In this document: positions 1 to 56,396 of the stretch, one piece after another
Numbering within the stretch: the stretch's first letter is position 1
Layout of the letters: each line of letters starts with the position of its first letter
Origin: Arenibacterium halophilum
GTDB lineage: Bacteria > Pseudomonadota > Alphaproteobacteria > Rhodobacterales > Rhodobacteraceae
NCBI RefSeq assembly: GCF_005938225.1
Contig: NZ_VCPC01000003.1
Span: forward strand, 1-64,000
DNA length: 64,000 bases
Direction of reading: 5' to 3'
Notes under the pieces: generated by a model
What the model saw: only the letters and a program-made list of their open reading frames with translations
Told to the model about the DNA's origin: nothing
The model's database searches: none
Translations under genes and position numbers: made by a program

Positions 1-109
1 ATCATAGCAAGAGCAAAACACCCAGAACCATCCCGAACCCGGAAGTTAAGTGCCTTCGCGCCAATGGTACTGCGGCTCAAGTCGTGGGAGAGTAGGTCAT
101 CGCCAAACC
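1..109 (+). rRNA. rrf: 5S ribosomal RNA, 3' part
   Basis: This is the distal end of a 5S rRNA gene and so the end of an rRNA operon whose 16S and 23S genes lie left of the window. The recognisable parts are the loop around CCATCCCGAAC, the GGTACTGC segment and the final GTGGGAGAGTAGGTC block, all typical of bacterial 5S rRNA. The first few bases of the molecule are missing. It is followed closely by an intrinsic terminator, and no tRNA lies between them. Confidence 0.93.
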
Positions 110-39900: not shown

Positions 39901-39977
39901 TGGTCGGAGTGAGAGGATTCGAACCTCCGGCCCCTGCCTCCCGAAGACAGTGCTCTACCAGGCTGAGCTACACTCCG
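39901..39977 (-). tRNA. tRNA-Pro (anticodon CGG)
   Basis: On the minus strand a 77-base cloverleaf begins CGGAGTGTAGCTCAG. It has a 7-bp acceptor stem (CGGAGTG with CACTCCG), anticodon stem CTGTC/GGCAG with loop TTCGGGA (anticodon CGG, reading CCG codons), the TTCGAAT T-loop, and an encoded CCA end. Confidence 0.97.
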
Positions 39978-54424: not shown

Positions 54425-54500
54425 ACCGACCTTTTTGCCGCCGCATTTTCGCCCTATCAGGGGCCTACGAATCCTCGGGATAAATGGGCAGGAGCGCGGC

Positions 54501-55313
54501 GTGCGGCGGCTGATCGGAACGATACTGGCACTACTCCTGCCGATGCAGGTCGCGGCGCAGGATGCGGCGCTGCAATCGCTGGAAACCACCGACGCAGGCC
54601 GCCAGTGGGAGGCCGTGGGCCGTCTGGATCTGAATGGACGCGGATTTTGTACCGGTGCGCTGATCGCGCCCGATCTGGTGCTGACGGCAGCGCATTGCCT
54701 CTACGACAAACGCAGCGGCCATCGGATCGACCCCGAAACCATCGAATTCCTCGCCGGCTGGCGCAACGGCCGCGCCTCGGCCTACCGCCAGGTGCGCCGC
54801 GCGGTGGCCCACCCCGACTATACGTTTGATCACGATCTCTCGGCCGACCGGGTCCGCAACGATGTGGCACTACTGGAATTGCAGCACCCGATCCGCAACA
54901 CCACCGTGGTGCCGTTTGAAACCGCCCGCCGCCCGGCTCCCGGCGATGCCATTGGTATCGTGTCCTATGCCCATGACCGGTCCGAGGCGCCCTCGCTGCA
55001 AGAGGTCTGCCATGTCATCTCGCGGCAGGAGGGCGTTCTTGTGATGTCCTGCGACGTCGATTTCGGATCGTCCGGCGCCCCGGTCTTTTCATTCGCAACA
55101 GGCACGCCGCAGATCGTATCGGTGGTCTCGGCCAAGGCCGAGGTGGGCGAGGGGCGCGTGGCGCTGGGCACCGATCTCGAACGCCCTCTGGCCACGCTGA
55201 TGACCCAACTGATTTCCGGTCGTGGTTTCAACACATCGGCCCCGCCCCGCGCAAACCGCGTGATGGTGGGGGAAGGCAAACGCAACACTGGCGCAAAGTT
55301 CATAAAACCATGA
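54501..55313 (+). CDS. Secreted trypsin-like serine protease
   Basis: This 270-residue precursor has a signal peptide (RRLIGTILALLLPMQVAAQ). The S1 catalytic triad is complete: His in VLTAAHCLYD, Asp in RNDVALLEL, and Ser in DFGSSGAPVFSF, where GSSGAP replaces the usual GDSGGP. The start is a GTG at 54501 with GGAG 6 bases upstream; upstream in-frame ATG codons would add a non-signal extension. It probably acts in the periplasm or outside the cell. Its stop overlaps the start of a small secreted protein gene. Confidence 0.88.
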   Translation: MRRLIGTILALLLPMQVAAQDAALQSLETTDAGRQWEAVGRLDLNGRGFCTGALIAPDLVLTAAHCLYDKRSGHRIDPETIEFLAGWRNGRASAYRQVRRAVAHPDYTFDHDLSADRVRNDVALLELQHPIRNTTVVPFETARRPAPGDAIGIVSYAHDRSEAPSLQEVCHVISRQEGVLVMSCDVDFGSSGAPVFSFATGTPQIVSVVSAKAEVGEGRVALGTDLERPLATLMTQLISGRGFNTSAPPRANRVMVGEGKRNTGAKFIKP

Positions 55314-55740: not shown

Positions 55741-55769
55741 CTTGACAGCCCCGCACAGCGTTCCCATCT
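55741..55769 (+). promoter_or_regulatory. RpoH (sigma-32)-type heat-shock promoter of hsp20
   Basis: CTTGAC (55741-55746) is followed after 15 bases by TCCCATCT (55762-55769), matching the heat-shock consensus CTTGAA-N13-15-CCCCATNT with few changes. It lies about 94 bases before the hsp20 start. Confidence 0.7.
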
Positions 55770-55778
55770 CCAGCGATA

Positions 55779-55862
55779 CCGGGATGCCAGATCGGGCCCG
55801 GTGATGAATTGCCCGTCCAATCGGAGGGCATGACACCATATCGCTCATGATGAGGATGACAC
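55779..55862 (+). promoter_or_regulatory. ROSE-type RNA thermometer in the hsp20 leader
   Basis: The leader forms three successive stem-loops: CCGGG/CCCGG (55779-55801), TGCCC/GGGCA (55810-55830), and a final one where TCGCT (55841-55845) pairs with the Shine-Dalgarno AGGA (55853-55856). The UYGCU/AGGA pairing with a bulged G is the defining element of ROSE thermometers, which unfold at heat-shock temperature to free the ribosome site of small heat-shock genes. Confidence 0.75.
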
Positions 55863-56336
55863 ATGCGTAGTTTTGATTTTGCACCCCTGCACCGTGCAAC
55901 CGTCGGCTTTGATCAATTCGCCGACCTGATGGACCGCCTGCTGACCAGCGACGTCAGCCAGCCGACCTACCCGCCCTACAACATAGAAAAGACCGCTGCC
56001 GATGCCTATCGCATCTCGATTGCCGTCGCGGGCTTTTCGGAGTCTGACCTTATGGTCGAAGTGAAGGAAAAGGCGCTCGTCGTGTCGGCCCGCAAAGCCG
56101 AGGAAGACACCAATCGCAGCTTCCTGCACCGCGGCATCGCGACCCGCGCGTTCGAACGTCGCTTCCACCTTGCCGACCATGTGCGCGTCACCGGCGCAAC
56201 CCATGTTGACGGGATGCTGCATATCGACCTGGAACGCGAAGTGCCCGAGGCGCTGAAACCGCGTCGCATCCAGATCGCCAGCACGACGCCGACCGCGCAG
56301 GAAACGGATGTCGTCGAGGCCAAATCGGTCAACTGA
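55863..56336 (+). CDS. Small heat-shock protein, Hsp20/IbpA family
   Basis: This ATP-independent chaperone binds unfolding proteins. The 157 residues match IbpA-type class A small heat-shock proteins: N-terminal LHRATVGFDQFADLMDRLL, the alpha-crystallin domain from YPPYNIEKTAADAYRISIAV through FLHRGIATRAFERRFHLADH, and the conserved DGMLHIDLEREVPEALKPR followed by an IQIA C-terminal anchoring motif. It is preceded by a heat-shock promoter and an RNA thermometer and followed by a strong terminator, so it is a single-gene unit. Confidence 0.95.
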   Translation: MRSFDFAPLHRATVGFDQFADLMDRLLTSDVSQPTYPPYNIEKTAADAYRISIAVAGFSESDLMVEVKEKALVVSARKAEEDTNRSFLHRGIATRAFERRFHLADHVRVTGATHVDGMLHIDLEREVPEALKPRRIQIASTTPTAQETDVVEAKSVN

Positions 56337-56366
56337 TCCCAGTCACTTGTTCAATGTGATGAAACG

Positions 56367-56396
56367 GCGCGAGGCTCAATTGCCTCGCGCTTTTTT
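56367..56396 (+). terminator. Intrinsic terminator of hsp20
   Basis: GCGCGAGGC (56367-56375) pairs perfectly with GCCTCGCGC (56382-56390), with a 6-base loop and six following T residues. It lies 30 bases after the hsp20 stop. Confidence 0.93.

Follow-up and report, generated by a model that had tools for sequence, protein, structure and literature searches.

The window analysed here, a stretch of 64,000 nt from Arenibacterium halophilum (contig NZ_VCPC01000003.1, positions 1 to 64,000), contains an hsp20 gene on the plus strand at 55863..56336. The 157 aa product is an IbpA-like alpha-crystallin chaperone (Pfam HSP20, 68.4 bits), and the best NCBIfam model for it is PRK10743 IbpA, with 147.8 bits, which is under the model cut-off of 212. 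A terminator-like hairpin with a T run lies 3′ of the gene (56366..56396, plus strand); two hairpins of this kind occur in the stretch, while 0.9 were expected from shuffled sequences. A trypsin-like protease is encoded upstream of hsp20 (54435-55313), and on the minus strand between 56546 and 59046 Pfam identified a YfbK-like von Willebrand factor A protein and an ECF-like sigma factor of the sigma-70 family. Rfam places a 5S rRNA on the plus strand at the very start of the window (1-108, cut at the window edge) and a tRNA on the minus strand at 39904-39977. The host is a marine-type bacterium of the Roseobacter clade within the Rhodobacteraceae.

In order to compare the region upstream of hsp20 among relatives, the gene was sought in 61 genomes. 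Matches came from 51 of them, and for the 30 best loci, that of the window among them, the leader was examined. All 30 share boxes of the RpoH (sigma-32) type at similar spacing, located 3-7 nt 5′ of the region of the first hairpin. In the window the −35 element is CTTGAC (55741..55746, plus strand) and the −10 element is CCCATCT (55763..55769, plus strand), 7 nt 5′ of the leader. The arrangement as aligned with the relatives, CTTGAC-N16-CCCATCT, is identical to the CTTGAC-N15-TCCCATCT of the original prediction, in which letters and positions (55741-55746 and, after N15, 55762-55769) were exact. The window promoter agrees with the sigma-32-type consensus of E. coli at 11 of 13 positions, a value that 14 of 2000 shuffles also reached; the mean over the 30 leaders is 11.7, compared to 8.0 in shuffles. 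Its boxes also conform to the published RpoH promoter consensus CTTGAA-N13-18-CNCCATAT (PMC3669281). The genome carries one match to the RpoH model TIGR02392 over the cut-off, and two more below it. Since the motif is conserved and RpoH-type genes are present, hsp20 is probably transcribed from the RpoH-type promoter at 55741-55769, and transcription would start near 55776.

The leader is 87 nt long, comprises three hairpins and ends at the hsp20 start codon; including this codon, the whole ROSE-type element spans 55776..55865 on the plus strand, as delimited by the covariance model R1 described below. Hairpin H1 (about 55778..55802, plus strand) has a conserved G55786 adjoining the loop-proximal CC/GG pairs, and in the window it contains one extra A (55784) compared to the consensus. 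H2 (55810..55830, plus strand) has a bulged G55815. Its 3′ arm (GGAGGG at 55823-55828, GGAAGG in many relatives) resembles a ribosome-binding site inside a stable hairpin and possibly acts as a standby or decoy site. H3 (55839..55858, plus strand), the putative thermosensing hairpin, encloses the Shine-Dalgarno sequence AGGA (55853..55856, plus strand): U55841, C55842, C55844 and U55845 pair with A55853, G55854, G55855 and A55856, leaving G55843 bulged. Both the three stem-loops and the pairing of UCGCU with AGGA around a single bulged G had been foreseen and are borne out by these letters. The terminal loop, predicted to have 7 bases, is shorter, since a C55846-G55852 pair closes the stem one step further and leaves 5 nt (3 in some folds), and its very short length, taken before as distinctive, is not special. 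By calculated energy H3 is the weakest of the three hairpins (−4.2 versus −12.6 and −12.1 kcal/mol).

Neither the short signature nor the folding energy can be used as evidence for the leader. The window has a single copy of the pattern TCGCT-N3-9-AGGA-N4-10-ATG (0.28 expected); 24 of 100 shuffled windows have at least one, and the whole genome has 15, compared to 3 in a reversed control. The UCGCU/AGGA signature alone was rejected as an indication of ROSE because it is this common in the shuffles and in the genome. The folding energy of the window leader is ordinary when compared to shuffles (z −0.37), and it was set aside as well.

A covariance model, R1, was trained on 29 of the 30 leaders, with the window held out. 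R1 detected the window leader with 57.1 bits (E 7.7e-10 in 64 kb), the next best match in the window having 10.3 bits, and up to E 10 this leader is the only match in its own 4.6 Mb genome. By this comparison, the leader as a whole is far beyond chance. The U(C/U)GCU/Shine-Dalgarno hairpin is present in all 30 leaders. At E ≤0.01, R1 found exactly one match each in 139 of 149 genomes of the family (110 of 120 among those that were not used for training). In 135 of the 139 genomes the match ends exactly on the ATG of hsp20; three others stop 5-7 nt short of the matched start, and the one left continues into an hsp20 gene cut by the contig end. Ten of the 149 genomes gave no R1 match. In two of them (G019 and G159) hsp20 itself was not matched at 1e-15, and the leaders of four others (G008, G017, G033 and G138) were fetched: by eye, an H3-like hairpin is still recognizable in G008 and G017, and G138 has a leader of the paralog type discussed below. 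When loci were instead chosen by similarity of the protein (Sedimentitalea xiamensis with 82%, Ruegeria with 80%, and other genera of the Roseobacter clade), the element ended on the ATG in 80 of 80 cases. The position is thus that of known ROSE elements, which lie in the 5′ leaders of small heat-shock genes.

The structure of the leader is conserved as well. In an alignment of 56 leaders, 97.3% of the cells in paired columns can pair, and 16 of 22 pairs have changed on both sides. Covariation amounts to 0.452; shuffles gave 0.198, and sliding the partner column gave no more than 0.150. For 80 named leaders the value is 0.341 versus 0.166, which the shuffles did not reach; the number of doubly changed pairs in this set (10) was not beyond the shuffles, 53 of 500 equalling it. 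Covariation is strongest in H1 and H2 and least in H3, which varies little because the Shine-Dalgarno sequence inside it fixes the sequence. ROSE elements consist of two to four stem-loops (PMC4166951); the window leader has three, with stems kept by compensatory change. In ROSE, U(U/C)GCU pairs imperfectly with the Shine-Dalgarno sequence and leaves a bulged G (PMC11342760), exactly as found in H3 of the window.

The bulged base is a G in all three hairpins. This holds for 56 of 56 leaders in each hairpin, and for 80/80 (H1), 78/79 (H2) and 80/80 (H3) of the leaders chosen by protein; other unpaired columns of the same 80 leaders, the start codon aside, reach 82.5% at best, with a median of 46%. 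Both alignments were fitted to the model and have some genomes in common. A plain MAFFT alignment, not fitted to any model, gave the bulged G in 29/29, 29/29 and 28/29 leaders, and the window leader keeps all three. According to the usual account, the bulged G of ROSE serves to weaken the Shine-Dalgarno hairpin. This account does not extend to H1 and H2, because neither touches the Shine-Dalgarno sequence. A near-invariant bulged G in all three hairpins, with covarying stems, appears to be new; the literature searched, which leaves most subscription journals outside, yielded no such description, and this is weak evidence that the feature is unreported.

We also compared the leader to the ROSE families of Rfam. 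None of the three models (RF00435, RF01832, RF02523) matched the window at any threshold tried, including E ≤10 on 401 bases, so that membership at the gathering cut-off does not apply; this is the very outcome that the original prediction had named as its refutation. The genome of the window likewise has no RF00435 match, and no RF02523 match over the cut-off. This negative result is not decisive, because RF00435 is insensitive in this family: of 100 family genomes, none gave a score above its cut-off, while R1 matched 139 of 149. In the class the corresponding numbers are 0 of 142 for RF00435 over the cut-off and 44 of 142 for R1. Rfam was therefore dismissed as a judge in this case. Full-length RF00435 matches below the threshold do occur at the hsp20 leaders of relatives.

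Homology to accepted ROSE elements became apparent from wider searches. In the class, R1 matched 44 of 142 genomes at E ≤0.1 and left 98 without match, counted regardless of whether hsp20 is present; 14 of 23 RF00435 places coincide with R1 places, as compared by reading. Over the phylum, 50 of 349 genomes were matched at 52 places, and 42 of 43 places checked lie before hsp20. The one false match (L250) precedes a reading frame that by reading only resembles an aldehyde dehydrogenase. R1 matches overlap Rfam matches over the cut-off of RF00435 (L242, 81.5 bits), ROSE_2 (L247-L249) and ROSE_3 (L251). One genome (G489) has two hsp20 leaders matched by R1 (L241 and L242), of which Rfam ROSE accepts only one; by eye, L242, which is of the RF00435 type, has no bulged G in H2. 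R1 also aligned with the entire leader of E. coli K-12 ibpA (33.1 bits, E 2.9e-6), where Rfam ROSE_2 scores 100.4 bits. Because R1 also recovers elements accepted by Rfam, we assign the window leader to the ROSE class by homology, and not to RF00435 as Rfam defines it, and conclude that the three ROSE families of Rfam would cover parts of one broader element. The comparison supports the prediction that a Rhodobacteraceae genome, here one of the Roseobacter clade, has a leader of the ROSE type with an RpoH-type promoter.

The individual elements show both likenesses to the window leader and differences from it. The ibpA ROSE of E. coli (RF01832, ROSE_2) also precedes a gene for an IbpA-type chaperone, has UCGCU opposite the Shine-Dalgarno sequence, and in the R1 alignment shows three hairpins with a bulged G in each; its sequence is distant, however, and the ROSE_2 model, which starts only 3′ of H1, gave no match in the window. 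The rhizobial ROSE (RF00435) occupies the same place and shares an unpaired G in H1 of the Rfam consensus and a UUGCU/AGGA hairpin, but differs in having no bulged G in H2 and a longer terminal hairpin, which extends to the start codon. The two-hairpin ROSE of Pseudomonas ibpA (PMC3669281; RF02523, ROSE_3) has the Shine-Dalgarno hairpin with bulged G, but lacks H2.

The Pseudomonas element rather resembles the leader of a second hsp20 gene in the genome of the window. This gene was matched on contig C9 (476858-477217) and probably starts with GTG. Its leader (L036, contig C9 476400-477600), which lies before about 476834, is ROSE-like with two hairpins and has an RpoH-like promoter. Among the paralog leaders fetched, UCGCUU is invariant (20/20) and the predicted folds mostly have a bulged G in both hairpins; none of the 20 was matched by Rfam at E ≤0.5.

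Considering these findings together, the window leader is very probably a ROSE-type RNA thermometer, by which hsp20 would be controlled at the levels of transcription and translation. Conservation of the sequence and of the covarying structure, a constant place ahead of hsp20, and homology to ROSE elements accepted by Rfam, that of E. coli ibpA among them, are shown by these data; promoter use, melting and the effect on translation we infer. Heat would raise RpoH activity, leading to transcription of hsp20 from 55741-55769. In the transcript, H1 and H2 would remain folded, while H3 would pair the Shine-Dalgarno sequence with UCGCU and hide the ribosome-binding site until warming. The bulged G is expected to keep H3 weak, so that it opens with increasing temperature and ribosomes can start. 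The RpoH promoter and the opening of H3 would thus result in two-level control of hsp20. When the bulged G of H3 was left out in the model, the Shine-Dalgarno sequence was locked (unpaired probability 0.005 at 42 °C), and this predicted locking fits the ROSE idea.

A further reading is that the ROSE-type leader is also bound by its own product: free Hsp20 would repress translation via the bulged-G hairpins, and heat would draw Hsp20 to aggregates and release the mRNA, a mechanism described for IbpA of E. coli. We regard this as plausible, at somewhat less than even chance, and as an addition to the ROSE thermometer more than an alternative to it. IbpA of E. coli represses its own translation by binding the ibpA 5′ UTR, for which R93 is needed and Y34, R97 and K98 are also important (PMC10474464). 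In the Hsp20 of the window, position 34 is Y, and positions 93, 97 and 98 are each R; both R93 and Y34 are thus kept, and they are present in 30/30 and 80/80 relatives. Recognition of the E. coli ibpA leader by R1 points in the same direction, and so do the bulged Gs of H1 and H2, which vary as little as that of H3 despite lying away from the Shine-Dalgarno sequence. On the other hand, Y34 and R93 may be kept for reasons of chaperone function. The idea is also not entirely new, since the authors of the E. coli study noted Arg93 and Tyr34 in alphaproteobacterial IbpAs and suggested conservation from this (PMC10474464). Because Tyr34 and Arg93 are kept and invariant bulged Gs are present outside the Shine-Dalgarno hairpin, self-repression at H1 and H2 may be considered as a testable idea, not as a result.

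It is improbable that the leader only represses constitutively, or directs decay or folding of the mRNA, with temperature acting via RpoH alone. The energy model for the window would agree with such a leader: owing to a competing register, ViennaRNA predicted no opening of the Shine-Dalgarno sequence with warming, and its mean unpaired probability went from 0.46 at 25 °C to 0.35 at 42 °C. Over the 30 leaders the median rose modestly, from 0.010 at 25 °C to 0.046 at 42 °C. Since these calculations give no proof, the expected thermal behaviour of the window leader is deduced from homology to ROSE elements including that of E. coli ibpA, which argues against a merely constitutive role. The thermal behaviour of the E. 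coli ibpA ROSE is published. The same is true for the ROSE of Pseudomonas ibpA (PMC3669281). That the UCGCU/AGGA resemblance arose by chance in an ordinary leader, for which the 15 genomic copies and the Rfam negative might speak, is already refuted by the held-out R1 match and the family-wide conservation, and we give it practically no weight.

If the ROSE thermometer and self-binding are considered jointly, the Rhodobacteraceae leaders that Rfam misses and all three of its ROSE families could be forms of one ancient proteobacterial element. This element would be built from two or three copies of a hairpin whose bulged G sits two or three pairs below the loop. In H1 and H2 the bulged Gs would not sense temperature but would form recognition sites, for which the encoded Hsp20 is the most likely partner, and the leader would integrate heat (H3) and chaperone demand (H1/H2). 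This wider view is speculative, and we consider it rather unlikely in its entirety.

The window leader was previously unannotated, yet ROSE-like leaders are already known in the clade. More than 40 alpha- and gammaproteobacterial ROSE candidates were predicted in 2005 (as cited in PMC4166951 and PMC3669281), two ROSE-like elements are described for Sinorhizobium meliloti (PMC2873474), and Rfam ROSE was found before Hsp20 in Gluconobacter oxydans (PMC5756330). A 2011 report on Nautella sp. R11, of the Roseobacter clade, mentions ROSE-like motifs ahead of ibpA and hspD (PMC3230580). This is the same clade and the same two-gene arrangement as found here, and the passage naming the motifs is one sentence, without alignment or structure. 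In view of the Nautella report and the predictions of 2005, the original expectation that the leader would extend the set is not supported.

For the Rhodobacteraceae these data mean that a probable thermometer, present nearly throughout a large bacterial family, is hidden by a gap in RNA-family annotation. By homology, they tie the alphaproteobacterial leaders to ibpA of E. coli, and the strictly kept bulged Gs outside the Shine-Dalgarno hairpin make the role of the upstream ROSE hairpins concretely testable.
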